Assembly: GCA_027046245.1 (NCBI GenBank)
Contig: JALTZJ010000009.1
Coordinates: 21,596 to 85,595, forward strand
Length of the DNA: 64,000 nt
DNA from: Acidilobaceae archaeon
GTDB lineage: Archaea > Thermoproteota > Thermoprotei_A > Sulfolobales > Acidilobaceae
Direction of reading: 5' to 3'
A model generated the notes under the pieces. That model worked only from the letters and a program-made list of their open reading frames with translations, searched no databases and was not told where the DNA came from. Each line of letters starts with the position of its first letter. Position 1 is the first letter of the stretch. Of the stretch, positions 4,284-62,276 are shown piece after piece. The translations under genes were made by a program, and so were the position numbers.

Positions 4284-4398
4284 TGGCGGGCCCGCCGGGA
4301 TTTGAACCCGGGACTTCCGCCCTCCGCGGGGCGGCCAGGCGCCCGTGGTGGTCTACGGGTTAAGAGCCCGCCGCTCTACCAGGCTGAGCTACGGGCCC
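4284..4398 (-). tRNA. tRNA-Lys(CUU) with an insertion/intron between anticodon arm and T arm; CCA encoded
   Basis: Acceptor GGGCCCG/CGGGCCC, D arm GCUCAGCCUGGUAGAGC, anticodon arm GCGGG-CUCUUAA-CCCGU, T arm CCGGG-UUCAAAU-CCCGG. Confidence 0.8.
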
Positions 4399-9932: not shown

Positions 9933-12900
9933 GTGTGCAGTGTGAACCGCTACCTGCTGTTGATTGTACTGATTTCAATGGCAACAGCAGCATCGGCAGA
10001 AGTAGCATCAGCTTTACTTACTACTAACCCGGAGGATCTACTCCTATGGAGGAGCCCAGACCTAGGCGGCGACGTGCTTAGTGTTGCTTGGAGCCCGGAC
10101 GGAAGCATGATTGCAGTAGGCAGCCAATCAGGTGAGCTATTCGTTTTCAGCAGTTCAGGGGAGATCTTGTGGCGAGCTAGGCTAGACGGCTACGTCGAAA
10201 AGGCTGAATGGAGTCCAGATGGTAGCATGGTCGTAGCCGGCATTTCAAACTTCACCTCTTCAAGCCTCTACACTAGAATCTATGTATTTGATTATAGCGG
10301 AACCCTTTTATGGCAGAGCAGAGATCTTGACGGATACATAACAGATCTAAAGTGGAGTCCCAGCGGAGACGTTATTGCCGTGAGCACCAGCAGCGGCCTC
10401 GTTTATGCGCTCTCCGCTAACAGCGGTAACCTCCTATGGCAGAAGACCGTAGACGGCGCCGTGACTAGTATAGACTGGAACCCCGAGGGCTCTAGGCTAG
10501 CTGTGGGCAGCCAGTGGTGGGACAGCTCTACAGGAGCCCATGGATTCGTCTACGTGTACAGCAGCGGGGGAACACTGATCTGGCAGAGCGATGACCTATC
10601 CATGCTAGTCTACGAAGTTGACTGGAGCCCCAACAGCTCTTCTATCGCGGTCACCTTAATAACATTTAATGATAATGGGACTCCCTTCAGTAAAGTATAT
10701 GTATTCAGTGACGAGGGAGACCTACTCTGGGAATCCGCGCTAATAGAGGAATTCTACGTAAACGATGTAGACTGGAAACCTGATGCCTCGGAGCTGGCTA
10801 TCGTCCTAGCCAGTAGTCAACGAGACTTGTCTTACGTATTTATAGTAGCTCTCAGCCAAAGCGGAAGCGACTGGGCCTTAGGAATATCCACTATAATCTA
10901 TAAGGCCGCGTGGAACCCAGAAGGCGATAGTATAGCTCTAGGCACCAATTTAGGCCGCATACTCTTAATAATACAGAACGGTTGGCACGGCGAAGTGATC
11001 TGGACTAGCGGCGACCTAGGCGGCCCCGTATTTACTCTTTCCTGGAACTCCGACGCATCAACGCTCGCCACAGCCGCGAGCTCTAGGATGTACGTATTCA
11101 GCATGCACTTTGGAGTTATGCGTATACAGGGGGAGCCAGGCACGGTTATCCATGCAAAGGGTCCTGGCGGTTCAACAGTGTTTACGCTGCCGACGACGGG
11201 CAGCATTGAGGTCTATGCCGATCCAGGCGTCTACTTGTTAAGCTACGAGCTGCCCAAGCCCGAGAACTACATTGGCGACCCCTCGGCGCTAGTTGGCTCC
11301 CTAGACGCTCAAGTTCCTAAGAGGGCATTCAATAACGTATCTCTTCCATCGATAGACGATGTTCTTGGTCTACTTAGAGTACAAGCGCCCATGGATACAG
11401 GTGCGTCTGTTAATATAGCTTGGAGTAGCGGTAGCATAGATCTAGAGCTTCAGCCGTTCGAGGCTCCATTGTTCTATGCCGCTCCAGGAGAATACGTAGT
11501 GTCATACCAGCTACCCATACCCGATAACTACATAGGGGACCCGGACGCGCTAAAAGGTAAGATGAGTGTAACAGTTGATAGCGGTGAATACCAGTCAGTT
11601 TATATTCCAGGATACTCTAGCCTCACAGGCAGACTAGTGATACTTGTCGGCGATGCACCAGCAGAGATTAAAATATCGTGGCCTGGCGGATCCAAGACGC
11701 TCCTGGTCGATCCTAATACCGAGCTTGAATTCATAGTGCAGCCTGGAACTTACAGGATCTCATATGAAATTATAGTGAATGCTGACTTCATAGGGGATCC
11801 AGACGCAGTGAGAGGATCAATAAGCGTATCCGCGAAAGCAGGGTTTACCTATGAGGTTGAAGTGCCGGGATATAGCGATATACTCGGCGTATTAAGACTT
11901 GAATCTGGAAGTGAAGTTGAGACTAGTGTCTCAATCTTATGGGAGGGAGGCAGCAGAATTGTACGATTATCACCAGGCGAGGTAGTCGAGTTCTTCGCGT
12001 CACCTGGAAGGTATATTATCGAGTACTCGTTACCGGCACCAGCTAATTATATCGGAGATACAGGAATATTCAATGAGAGGGTCGAGTTCGACATCAAAAA
12101 CGGCTCTGTAATAAGCTATAAGATTCCCGGATATAGGGATATACTTGGTTATTTAATAATTGAAGCTGCTAGTGATGTCGATGCCTCGCTTTTAATAGCC
12201 TGGAACAACGGCTCCAAGAATATAGAAATTAAGGCGGGAGAAGTTCTCGAGTTCTGGGCATCTCCAGGAGAATACACGATTACCTACAATCTTCCGGTGC
12301 CAAGTAACTTCGTTGGGAACACGGAAATCCTGACTGGTGAGAAGATAGCCAGGGTCGATGCGGGCAGCTCCATTAAAGTGTGGCTCCCAGGCTACAGAGA
12401 GCTGCTGGGCCTCTTGGAGGTGAAAGCGTCAGACGACGTCTATGCCTACGTATCAATAACTTGGATCGGCGGCAGCGAGGACTTCACGCTTGATCCCGGC
12501 GAGATTGTAGAACTATGGGCTGCGCCAGGAGAATATAATCTAGTATACACTTTACCGGAGCCCGCGAACTTCGTCGGCGACACTGCCGTCCTAAGCGGTT
12601 CGACGTCTCTAGTGATATCAGAGGGATCAAAGACTAGCGTAGCGATACCCGGATACTCTGATCTCTTGGGAGTTTTAATTGTTAGAGCACCTGAGGATGC
12701 CCGTGTTAATGTGGACATATCCTGGGGCTCGGATAGCCTTCAAATCACACTGGAAAGAAGCGAGGAAATATTGTTCCAAGCCGCACCCGGCGTGTACCTA
12801 GTTTCCTATGCTTTAACAGTTCCTGAGAACTACGTTGGCGACCAAAGCATACTAGAGGGATATGTGGAGTTAGAAGTCGCCATAGGTCAACCCGTTATAT

Positions 12901-15230
12901 TAGATATCCCTGGTTATGACGCAGTAGTGGGTACAATAATTATAGAGGCTGCCGTCTCGGGCACGCATGTATTGATCTCGTGGAGTGATGGATCGAGAGA
13001 GTTTACAGTAAGTAATGACAGAAGGCTAGAGCTTGCAGCGGCCCCCGGATTCTACATCATAGCTTACAAGCTGCCAGAGCTAGAGAATTACATAGGAGGC
13101 GATGAAGGCCTTACAGGGACGCTAAAGGTAGAGGTCGAGGCTGGCAGTAGTGCACAGGCAGTATTGCCGGGCTACCAGGATCTACTAGGCACAGTCTATA
13201 TCAGTGCCCCAAGAGATGCGGCCTCTATAATCACTATTTTCTGGGAAGGAGGCTCCAAATCCATTACTCTCGAAGCTGGTAGTGTCTTAGAGCTGCTTGC
13301 AGCGCCTGGCAATTACAAGATAGCCTATGAACTCCCGGAGCCAGAGAATTATGTAGGCCCCGCTACTGCGCTCTCCGGCGAGAAAGCAATTTCCGTGGAG
13401 GCAGGCGATAAGACTAGCGTCTCACTCCCTGGTTACGAGAATCTTCTAGGCAAGATCAAGCTGACAGCAGGTGTCAGCGGGACACTAGTAGAGATAAAGG
13501 GGGCCTGGGGTTCTAGAGAGGTAACCTTGAGGAGCGGCGATGGCATAGTTTTGAACGCCGCGCCGGGAGAGTATAAAATCCTCTATAGGCTTCCAGAACC
13601 GGAAAACTACGTGGGCTCGGGTATCGGGCTAAAAGGTGAGATTACCGTATCTGTCGCTGCTGGCCAGATAGTATATGTAGAGGCGCCAGACTACCATGAG
13701 ACCCTTGCTGTGGCGGTAATCAAGGCTCCCGAAGGTTCCACAGTTACATTGGAGTCAGAGACTGTTAGAGTAAGTTTCGAATTAAAAAGTAGCGGCAATA
13801 TATCATTGTTTCTAGACCCAGGCAAGTATACACTAATAGTAACATACATGGACGCCACCGTCACTAAGGAGGTGGACGCAGGTAAGGGTGGTAAAATAAC
13901 GCTTGAGTTTAGACGGAAGGACTTCAGCGAGAAACTTAGTGCTGGCGGGCCTGGAGATAATGGCACGGCAAATAGCGGAAAACAGGATACGAGTACGGCA
14001 TCAGGATTACCGGGCAATACGGGAGAGGCTCTCGACGCGGAGAACGACGGAACGGAAGGCGGGGATCAAGTCGTATATGCTCCCCCGAAGCCTACTCAGC
14101 AAGACTCTATAGACGGTAGTACATTGATGGTGGCGCTATTAGCGGCATCGGCTAGCGTAGCATCAATATTACTAGTACTTGCTAGGAAGAGGGCTACGCC
14201 CCTCACTCTTCGTTTACCTATTAGTAGAGAATCGTACTCGACCGGCTCGAGAAGCAGTGAGAAGGAAGATGCTCCGCCTATGAGGCCTCCAAGCCTTGCG
14301 GAGATAGAGAGGCTGCTTGGAGTTAAAATCACGGATTTAAAGAGTGGCATAGCTCTATGTGAAGGCGACTATAAGATAGTTAGAATGGATTCTAGCATAG
14401 CACCCGAGGGCTATGAGGGCGAGTGGCGCTGCTGCAAGCTGGGCTGCGGCGGCTGGGGCTGCGCCTACCGCTGCCAGAGACCCTATGACGGAGAGCCCGT
14501 CGTGTTTAAAGTGCCTCGGGGCCTTGAGGTCCTGGTAGAGAAGGGTGTTAGCCCCACTCTAGATCCAAGTATCGTTGAAAAGGTTAGTAGCGAAGCTGAG
14601 GCTGTGGCTAGGCTTAGCCATGAACACCTTGCAAGGCTGTTGGCTTACAGTAAATCGGCGCCCTTACTCGTCTACGAGTACGCTGATGGAGGCAGCCTTG
14701 AGGATCAGGTCGCCAAGGGGTGGAAGCCTAGTATAAGGGATGCACTACTTATAGCTCTCCAGCTGGGAGACGCTCTACGATATATTCATAGTAGGGGAAT
14801 GTTGCACGGAGACGTTAAGCCTAGCAACATACTAGTTAAGGATAGAGTTGTTAAGCTAGGCGACTTTAGTAGCCTAGTGAGGCTCATTGCATTCACTAGT
14901 AATGCTAAACCAGCATTTACTCCCGGATGGAGAGCGCCCGAACACGCTAGCAGCGATCTTTGGGATAAGGCTAGGAAGAGAGGGCTAGAGAATAGAATAG
15001 ACGTGTACCAGCTAGGCAATCTGCTACTCTACTTAATCACCGGGTCTACTCTAGACGGGGCCGAGGTTAGTGATAAGGAAAAGGTCGCCGAGAAGCTATC
15101 CCTGGTTAGCGACGAGAAACTACGCGGCTTGCTAAGAGAGATGCTTAGCTATGAGCCGTGGAATAGGCCTAACATAGAGAAGGCGTTAGAAGAGCTAATC
15201 AACCTATATAAGTCATACGAGCGAACATAG
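9933..15230 (+). CDS. Receptor-like transmembrane protein kinase: signal peptide, WD40/PQQ-like propeller, PEGA-like repeats, TM helix, Hanks-type kinase
   Basis: VxWSPDGSxxAVG blades; 87-aa repeats ending PGYxDLLG; TM TLMVALLAASASVASILLVLA; HGDVKPSNILV, GDFSS, APEH. Confidence 0.93.
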   Translation: MCSVNRYLLLIVLISMATAASAEVASALLTTNPEDLLLWRSPDLGGDVLSVAWSPDGSMIAVGSQSGELFVFSSSGEILWRARLDGYVEKAEWSPDGSMVVAGISNFTSSSLYTRIYVFDYSGTLLWQSRDLDGYITDLKWSPSGDVIAVSTSSGLVYALSANSGNLLWQKTVDGAVTSIDWNPEGSRLAVGSQWWDSSTGAHGFVYVYSSGGTLIWQSDDLSMLVYEVDWSPNSSSIAVTLITFNDNGTPFSKVYVFSDEGDLLWESALIEEFYVNDVDWKPDASELAIVLASSQRDLSYVFIVALSQSGSDWALGISTIIYKAAWNPEGDSIALGTNLGRILLIIQNGWHGEVIWTSGDLGGPVFTLSWNSDASTLATAASSRMYVFSMHFGVMRIQGEPGTVIHAKGPGGSTVFTLPTTGSIEVYADPGVYLLSYELPKPENYIGDPSALVGSLDAQVPKRAFNNVSLPSIDDVLGLLRVQAPMDTGASVNIAWSSGSIDLELQPFEAPLFYAAPGEYVVSYQLPIPDNYIGDPDALKGKMSVTVDSGEYQSVYIPGYSSLTGRLVILVGDAPAEIKISWPGGSKTLLVDPNTELEFIVQPGTYRISYEIIVNADFIGDPDAVRGSISVSAKAGFTYEVEVPGYSDILGVLRLESGSEVETSVSILWEGGSRIVRLSPGEVVEFFASPGRYIIEYSLPAPANYIGDTGIFNERVEFDIKNGSVISYKIPGYRDILGYLIIEAASDVDASLLIAWNNGSKNIEIKAGEVLEFWASPGEYTITYNLPVPSNFVGNTEILTGEKIARVDAGSSIKVWLPGYRELLGLLEVKASDDVYAYVSITWIGGSEDFTLDPGEIVELWAAPGEYNLVYTLPEPANFVGDTAVLSGSTSLVISEGSKTSVAIPGYSDLLGVLIVRAPEDARVNVDISWGSDSLQITLERSEEILFQAAPGVYLVSYALTVPENYVGDQSILEGYVELEVAIGQPVILDIPGYDAVVGTIIIEAAVSGTHVLISWSDGSREFTVSNDRRLELAAAPGFYIIAYKLPELENYIGGDEGLTGTLKVEVEAGSSAQAVLPGYQDLLGTVYISAPRDAASIITIFWEGGSKSITLEAGSVLELLAAPGNYKIAYELPEPENYVGPATALSGEKAISVEAGDKTSVSLPGYENLLGKIKLTAGVSGTLVEIKGAWGSREVTLRSGDGIVLNAAPGEYKILYRLPEPENYVGSGIGLKGEITVSVAAGQIVYVEAPDYHETLAVAVIKAPEGSTVTLESETVRVSFELKSSGNISLFLDPGKYTLIVTYMDATVTKEVDAGKGGKITLEFRRKDFSEKLSAGGPGDNGTANSGKQDTSTASGLPGNTGEALDAENDGTEGGDQVVYAPPKPTQQDSIDGSTLMVALLAASASVASILLVLARKRATPLTLRLPISRESYSTGSRSSEKEDAPPMRPPSLAEIERLLGVKITDLKSGIALCEGDYKIVRMDSSIAPEGYEGEWRCCKLGCGGWGCAYRCQRPYDGEPVVFKVPRGLEVLVEKGVSPTLDPSIVEKVSSEAEAVARLSHEHLARLLAYSKSAPLLVYEYADGGSLEDQVAKGWKPSIRDALLIALQLGDALRYIHSRGMLHGDVKPSNILVKDRVVKLGDFSSLVRLIAFTSNAKPAFTPGWRAPEHASSDLWDKARKRGLENRIDVYQLGNLLLYLITGSTLDGAEVSDKEKVAEKLSLVSDEKLRGLLREMLSYEPWNRPNIEKALEELINLYKSYERT
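11106..13915 (+). repeat. Protein-coding tandem repeats: ten ~87-aa PEGA-like modules plus one degenerate module
   Basis: Consensus xLxIxAxxDxxxxVxIxWxGGSxxxxLxxGExLExxAAPGxYxIxYxLPxPENYVGDxxxLxGxxxxxVxAGxxxxVxIPGYxDLLG. Confidence 0.85.
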
Positions 15231-45870: not shown

Positions 45871-45919
45871 ATGGAGCCGCCGGCGGGATTCGAACCCGCG
45901 ACCACCGGCTTACAAGGCC
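45871..45919 (-). repeat. Partial tRNA-Thr 3' half, perfect 49-bp direct repeat (att copy)
   Basis: Identical to 46628-46676 (atggagccgccggcgggattcgaacccgcgaccaccggcttacaaggcc); diverges 5' of the anticodon stem. Confidence 0.92.
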
Positions 45920-46083
45920 AGAAAGTATAAATACTACAGCTTTAGTGTGTTATGAGAATCTGAAACGATTATAGAGAATGTAGTGTTCAAAATGATATTC
46001 ATTAATGTAAGCTGAAACATCTGCAGGTTGCCAAGGATTTTTATCCTGGGAGCGGATTATAGTTTTAGGGGCGATGCCCTAGG

Positions 46084-62141: not shown

Positions 62142-62276
62142 TGGTGCCGCCGCCGGGATTCGAACCCGGGACCCCCGGATCTCCCAGGCCCCCCGGGTCC
62201 CCTCTGTCGCTTTCGACTCCGGACACCGGGGCTGGCCGTATGAGTCCGGTGCTCTGCCAGGCTGAGCTACGGCGGC
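62142..62276 (-). tRNA. tRNA-Met(CAU) elongator-like with ~58-nt intron at 37/38, CCA encoded
   Basis: Acceptor GCCGCCG/CGGCGGC-A73; CCGGA-CUCAUA | intron | A-UCCGG; T arm CCGGG-UUCGAAU-CCCGG. Confidence 0.88.

Follow-up and report, generated by a model that had tools for sequence, protein, structure and literature searches.

The window analysed here, a stretch of 64,000 nucleotides from a 76% complete MAG of a hot-vent archaeon of the Acidilobaceae (contig JALTZJ010000009.1), carries at positions 9933..15230 of the + strand, on which all the features described below also lie, a gene for a protein of 1765 aa with a GTG start and no internal stop. An in-frame GTG also occurs at 9942 and, as read from the sequence, a start there would still retain the signal peptide. 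Pfam profile search indicates a real coding gene, with a Pkinase match of 5e-28 at aa 1502-1753 and matches to WD40-type models to 2e-22, and the base composition of the gene is ordinary for its contig. Upstream, on the same strand and after a gap of 185 bp, lies uL2, while nep1 is convergent and abuts the stop of the gene; both flanking genes, already named in a preliminary description of this DNA, were confirmed by profile search. A conserved locus comprising uL2, the large gene and nep1 was considered and ruled out, since uL2 and nep1 are apart in five genomes of the same genus: in the two single-contig ones they map at 167 and 351 kb (G002) and at 158 and 348 kb (G004), at a distance of about 180-190 kb in both, and in the remaining three (G001, G003, G005) they are on separate contigs. 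As the two genes are not adjacent in these genomes, the position of the large gene is uninformative on its function. No conserved ligand-pathway neighbour was found beside it, and single-chain receptors of this type have no recurrent neighbours across genomes, except for one family of unknown function common to two of them (L061 and L080). Elsewhere in the window, Rfam tRNA matches occur at 4287-4398, 45875-45940 and 62145-62276, all missed by ARAGORN; the first and the last are longer than usual and perhaps contain introns.

The protein begins with a predicted signal peptide (aa 1-22, 9933..9998), MCSVNRYLLLIVLISMATAASA|EV, in which, in line with the earlier proposal, a hydrophobic N-terminus is followed by an A-x-A cleavage site (A-S-A, with cleavage predicted before Glu23); both this element and the transmembrane (TM) helix described below were assigned by hydropathy and direct reading of motifs. 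It is followed by a WD40-type beta-propeller (aa 23-395, 9999..11117), to which seven blades had been attributed and which actually has eight, as judged from eight W-S-P-type motifs, eight blade HMM hits and the AlphaFold model of aa 22-644 (pLDDT 90.9, from an 11-sequence alignment). In this model, the propeller consists of seven four-strand blades and a three-stranded eighth blade, which the N-terminal strand is read as completing, and repeated small beta modules come after it. The profiles of WD40 (PF00400, 40.4 bits vs a cut-off of 27) and ANAPC4_WD40 (79.6 vs 22.9) both recognize the domain, and WD40 propellers were matched in the fold search against the PDB, among them the WD40 domain of the bacterial kinase PkwA (5yzv), which is similar in sequence as well as in fold.

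The stalk that follows consists of nine tandem modules of 86-87 aa (aa 478-1258, 11364..13706), free of cysteine, beta-rich in the model and recognizable by the signature APGxYxIxYxLPxPxNYxGD...PGYxxLLG, with 35-48% identity to the first of them, flanked by a divergent first module (aa 396-477, 11118..11363) and a divergent last one (aa 1259-1330, 13707..13922). Altogether, 11 module HMM hits were obtained in the range of aa 393-1309, which agrees with the approximately 11 tandem beta modules initially reported. The PEGA-like nature ascribed to these modules did not hold, as PF08308 reached 19.7 bits on the whole protein vs a cut-off of 20.8 and the modules scanned singly matched no Pfam family, PEGA included; the likeness to PEGA is a resemblance only. 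A true PEGA domain (136.5 bits) occupies the corresponding place in the relative L080.

A low-complexity Gly/Ser/Thr/Asp linker devoid of Arg (aa 1331-1397, 13923..14123) leads to a single TM helix (aa 1398-1416, 14124..14180), both of which had been anticipated, the helix falling inside the predicted span of ~14118-14187. Next comes the sequence ARKRATPLTLR, positively charged and assigned to the cytoplasmic side, at the start of a juxtamembrane segment (aa 1417-1475, 14181..14357) that is partly disordered in the model. A hydrophobic peak at aa 997 was examined as a possible second TM and rejected, as it falls in a stalk repeat and is read as a beta strand. In 24 TM proteins, comprising those of the family and propeller relatives, the comparison of the 15 residues before the TM with the 15 after it gave a mean net charge of +0.17 outside vs +3.08 inside (p = 7.5e-5), and the charge of the inner flank was the higher one in 20 of the 24. 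Together with the N-terminal signal, whether it is cleaved or not, this positive-inside bias places the propeller outside and the kinase inside, that is, on opposite sides of the membrane, which bears out the topology first suggested. The kinase is devoid of glycosylation sequons, of which the ectodomain and linker together contain eight. Cysteine is lacking from the 1375 aa of the ectodomain that follow the signal peptide, and every cysteine of the protein except Cys2 belongs to the kinase. By hydropathy, signal peptide and charge, the protein thus has the layout of a receptor-type TM kinase, with a folded ectodomain, one TM and a kinase across the membrane.

The C-terminal domain (aa 1476-1765, 14358..15227) is a Hanks-type protein kinase according to Pfam (Pkinase profile, 98.7 bits vs a cut-off of 31.7), motifs, AlphaFold (pLDDT 90.4 and pTM 0.87, from a 39-sequence alignment) and fold comparison, the best PDB match being PknB of M. 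tuberculosis. The catalytic set is complete and comprises the ATP-anchoring Lys1526 (14508..14510; Lys in 37 of 39 sequences), Glu1554, the residues Asp1627, Lys1629 and Asn1632 of the catalytic loop HGDVKPSN (aa 1625-1632, 14805..14828), Asp1644 of the metal-binding DFS motif (aa 1644-1646, 14862..14870; Asp in 39/39) and APE, so that the HGDVKPSNIL and APE motifs noticed earlier are both present. When the catalytic residues are aligned across the 39 sequences of the family, the sites are near-invariant save for the alpha-C Glu, kept in 29; the preliminary description had regarded an inactive domain unconserved in relatives as evidence against a receptor, and the kinase was found to be conserved and complete in them. 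The retained catalytic residues indicate that the window kinase is apparently active. As in most of the family, it is of the non-RD kind, with HGD in place of HRD and DFS in place of DFG.

A feature new in this analysis is the cysteine-rich glycine loop of the kinase (14424..14474), which contains Cys1500, Cys1501, Cys1505, Cys1510 and Cys1514, with Cys1476 as a sixth, and has in the family the signature W-x-CC-x-LGCGGWGC-[AV]-Y-x-C, with Ala at the variable position in the window protein. The cysteines come and go in pairs: of the 39 sequences, 36 have both Cys1505 and Cys1510 and three have neither; for Cys1476 and Cys1501, 26 sequences contain the two and six lack them, with no case of a single one; and for Cys1500 and Cys1514, the corresponding numbers are 27 and five, with one sequence retaining only one of the two. 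This all-or-none behaviour is the pattern expected from disulfides, with at most three independent changes per pair, which in a phylogenetic test falls short of significance. Most likely, the pairs form cytosolic disulfides that stabilize the glycine loop; a redox switch is possible. Since disulfides are abundant inside the cells of Crenarchaea (PMC3177088), a structural role is taken as the default and a switch as the bolder proposal. A wider, speculative and improbable version would make the protein the founding example of a redox-gated archaeal receptor family, in which the pairs 1476-1501, 1500-1514 and 1505-1510 clamp the ATP loop and the receptors signal to the soluble propeller kinases. 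If this were true, kinase output would follow the surface signal plus the thiol state of the cell, within a small kinome made up of one family.

The source MAG encodes four Pkinases above the cut-off, all of this family, two with a TM (the window gene and C12, of 1026 aa) and two without (C48, with a propeller, and C62). A single FHA domain was found in the MAG (G000:C1:6513-6737, L247), a possible phospho-reader for the family kinases. In the order, 21 of 214 genomes, belonging to 15 of 78 genera, encode the kinase subfamily, which gave no match in the complete single-contig genomes of the genus, G002 and G004, so that it does not serve a core function. The genomes of the same genus include an Aeropyrum sp. 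MAG (G001), whose TM relative of 544 aa has no recognizable propeller and in which a TGA-interrupted propeller fragment (C81:1176-1562) lies beside a kinase at a contig end (L055:1-471), a broken copy or an assembly error; the same applies to a TGA-interrupted family kinase in G017 (C18, L071:6798-7541). A pattern-based scan of 84,980 bacterial and archaeal species, of which the best 80 matches were kept, returned among these 80 close relatives from Desulfurococcales-type Thermoproteota and one Thermocladium, the bacterial matches being generic kinases at about 30%. The family is patchy and found almost only among uncultured relatives. In other parts of the phylum, the long kinases sampled (G188, G335, G370 and others) have no such propeller, stalk module or receptor layout; the rarity initially claimed for Archaea in general stands for the Thermoproteota as sampled. 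In the literature searched, no description of an archaeal protein with propeller, stalk, TM and kinase was found, absence there being no proof.

In the tree of kinase domains, the window kinase is sister to a paralogue from its own genome (support 99/94), and both group with two propeller receptors of G012 and G017 (support 96/95). The two paralogues are 66% identical in the kinase vs 31% in the propeller, which suggests a conserved output with a changing input. Across the wider tree, receptor, soluble and split forms are interleaved, which indicates that the layouts changed repeatedly. The full succession of signal peptide, propeller, stalk, TM and kinase, for which a survey of related genomes had been recommended, is shared by the own-genome paralogue and by proteins of G012, G033, G018 and G034; the number of stalk modules, 11 in the window protein, is two in the paralogue (L058), L061 and L069, three in L065 and six in L074. 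Receptors of G017 (L062) and G086 (L080, with a stalk of PKD and true PEGA) have the same layout without the window-type module. Soluble propeller-kinases are also found (L060, from the same genome, L073, L075, L038 and L091), and since in L060, L073 and L075 the propeller is carried by a soluble kinase without a signal peptide, a propeller alone is no proof of an outside sensor. The protein L074:5850-9956 of G034, with eight blades, six stalk modules and a TM, ends in a kinase of another class (HRD, DFG; Pkinase 8e-53), so that ectodomain and kinase have recombined.

Besides the fused forms, sensor and kinase occur as split pairs, in which a kinase gene is separated by 25-87 bp from a gene for a propeller with a signal peptide, a TM at the C-terminus and a short basic tail (G017, G025, G070); in further pairs of G017 and G025 the two are about 1 kb apart with one gene between. 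Four of the eight strong unfused propeller genes, from eight genomes, are within 3 kb of a kinase vs 2% expected (p = 9e-6), a value obtained with distance and E-value limits set post hoc and becoming 3e-4 if the expectation is raised 2.5-fold. That propeller and kinase are fused in some genomes and adjacent in others is the strongest evidence that they work together. Only the split loci retain their neighbours, within closely related genomes: in the genus g13, the pairs at L097:4063-7614, L100:1-5595 and L101:4219-10168 adjoin an AsnC/Lrp-like gene and biosynthesis genes of the lysX, argC/lysY and argB/lysZ types, named by eye, which hints at an amino-acid-related signal for this sub-branch. 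Related propeller-stalk-TM proteins without a kinase exist as well; the longest, of 1808 aa (L051:6896-12322, G036), has a signal peptide and may be a surface protein or the partner in a split receptor. In the single-contig genome G037, an ORF of 1967 aa (L064:12369-18272) with a weak kinase match, Pkinase being over the cut-off, follows a soluble kinase of the family about 1 kb downstream. The window gene is not a lone curiosity; it has a family around it, in which the kinase loop is distinctive and split versions occur.

These observations are best accounted for, with a probability of about 80% in our estimate, if the product of the gene is a one-component receptor protein kinase of type I (N-out, C-in). 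The one-component surface receptor put forward in the preliminary description is supported by computation at the level of anatomy, topology, kinase conservation and linkage of sensor and kinase. In the proposed mechanism, the propeller would bind a ligand or a partner at the cell surface, held off the membrane by the 11-module stalk, which presumably reaches into or past the S-layer; binding would gather or reorient receptors, whose kinase domains could phosphorylate one another before acting on substrates in the cytosol, for which the genome's two soluble kinases of this family and the only FHA protein found in it are likely candidates. A non-RD (HGD) kinase such as this probably does not need the customary phosphate clamp on the activation loop in order to be activated. 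That a TM kinase may act on other kinases has a precedent in Sulfolobus, which is counted in favour of the receptor reading (PMC5682000).

The same anatomy could also serve for attachment, and it is conceivable, though rather doubtful, that the protein is fastened to the S-layer or to a neighbour by its propeller and stalk, the kinase being constitutive or responsive to tension in membrane or wall. The freely variable length of the stalk (0, 2, 3, 6 or 11 modules), the lack of any conserved ligand-pathway neighbour found at the window gene and the kinase-free propeller-stalk-TM relatives, expected of surface building blocks, would all fit a tether; a sensor is however better suited to the repeated linkage of propeller and kinase, fused or adjacent, and to the faster divergence of the propeller. 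It is very unlikely that the signal segment is unused for export and that propeller and kinase are both cytosolic, with the TM as a plain anchor. Soluble propeller-kinases in the same genome and in relatives are in keeping with such an arrangement, as is the occurrence of predicted disulfides in the kinase of a protein whose ectodomain is without any cysteine, but intracellular disulfides are normal in Crenarchaea (PMC3177088), the signal peptide with its A-S-A site is clear and recurs in other receptors, the positive-inside bias C-terminal to the TM is strong, and even an uncleaved signal would leave the propeller outside.

Equally little favours a decaying or pseudo-kinase receptor, whose function would be fading after duplication and to which we give a marginally smaller chance. 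The window kinase sits on a longer branch (0.48) than the sister from its own genome (0.21), has changed at five out of 76 conserved positions, with APEHA in place of APEQV among the changes, and has broken, TGA-interrupted relatives (the G017 kinase and G001 propeller fragment mentioned above); yet the 1765 codons are read without interruption, no catalytic residue has been lost and, in comparison with the same-genome paralogue, the kinase has a dN of 0.26 and a dS of 1.77, with a dN/dS of about 0.15 to be read with dS near saturation. Least probable of all is a defence kinase sensing viruses at the surface and related to MAD6 or PD-T4-6. The PADLOC models mad6 (1.6e-33) and PD-T4-6 (3e-21) do match the kinase, but the matches are confined to the generic kinase fold (aa 1489-1763), which many kinase models match alike, and the gene is flanked by uL2 and nep1 with no defence partner seen, which does not make a MADS or PD-T4-6 system; the patchy occurrence is compatible with defence, yet unspecific.

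Crenarchaea are often devoid of histidine kinases, and how archaea sense their surroundings is a long-standing question; to our knowledge, few signals have been identified for the known archaeal Hanks-type kinases. If the receptor reading is correct, the receptors of this family combine in one chain an obvious sensor module with a stalk of variable length, and two-gene versions exist in which sensor and kinase can be tested separately; as all four Pkinases of the MAG above the cut-off are in the family, the signalling set may be so small that it can be mapped completely. The window protein is one long archaeal chain that resembles an animal-style surface receptor, with a propeller sensor, a stalk, one membrane crossing and a kinase inside.

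Among the systems known so far, the Sulfolobus-type kinases form a different subfamily, as the 414-aa kinases of f11, which we take to be the Sulfolobaceae, match A3 at about 1e-30 only. In bacteria, AfsK of Streptomyces begins with the kinase and ends with the propeller, an order that is reversed in the window protein. Both join a Ser/Thr kinase to a beta-propeller, of PQQ type in AfsK, but the AfsK model (NCBIfam NF053615) matches only the kinase part, with 31.8 bits vs a cut-off of 1300, and the protein is thus not an AfsK. PkwA of Thermomonospora curvata also combines a kinase with a WD40 propeller. Its kinase is N-terminal, its propeller C-terminal, and there is no stalk; PMC5587647 cites its description from 1996. 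The PASTA kinases PknB and StkP and the mycobacterial PknD are, like the window protein, receptor Ser/Thr kinases with one TM; in these an N-terminal kinase lies inside and a C-terminal sensor outside, and the sensor is PASTA or NHL in place of WD40. The PASTA-kinase model scored 62 bits vs a cut-off of 450, and PASTA is absent among the families listed for the protein, which sets it apart from that group. The order of the window protein is rather that of eukaryotic type I receptor kinases (RTKs, PERK, IRE1), in which an N-terminal sensor, outside or lumenal, is followed by one TM and a C-terminal kinase. The kinase similarity to these is generic and the likeness one of layout, with no sign of a common descent of the architecture; the shared layout bears on how often such a solution arose. 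In a 2005 survey of kinase architectures in prokaryotes, OSGP is the main partner domain described for multidomain kinases of archaea (PMC1262709), and a 2017 survey counted 63 archaeal WD40 proteins and reported links of WD40 with kinases in cyanobacteria and planctomycetes (PMC5587647). The closest archaeal counterparts in terms of a Hanks-type kinase with a TM segment are SiRe_0101 and SiRe_2056 of S. islandicus; the available portion of the report on them names TM, TPR and wHTH as accessory domains of the ePKs, with no mention there of a propeller or tandem stalk, and relates that its authors proposed outside sensing for the two TM kinases and that the catalytic domain of SiRe_2056 was able in vitro to phosphorylate every other ePK tested (PMC5682000).
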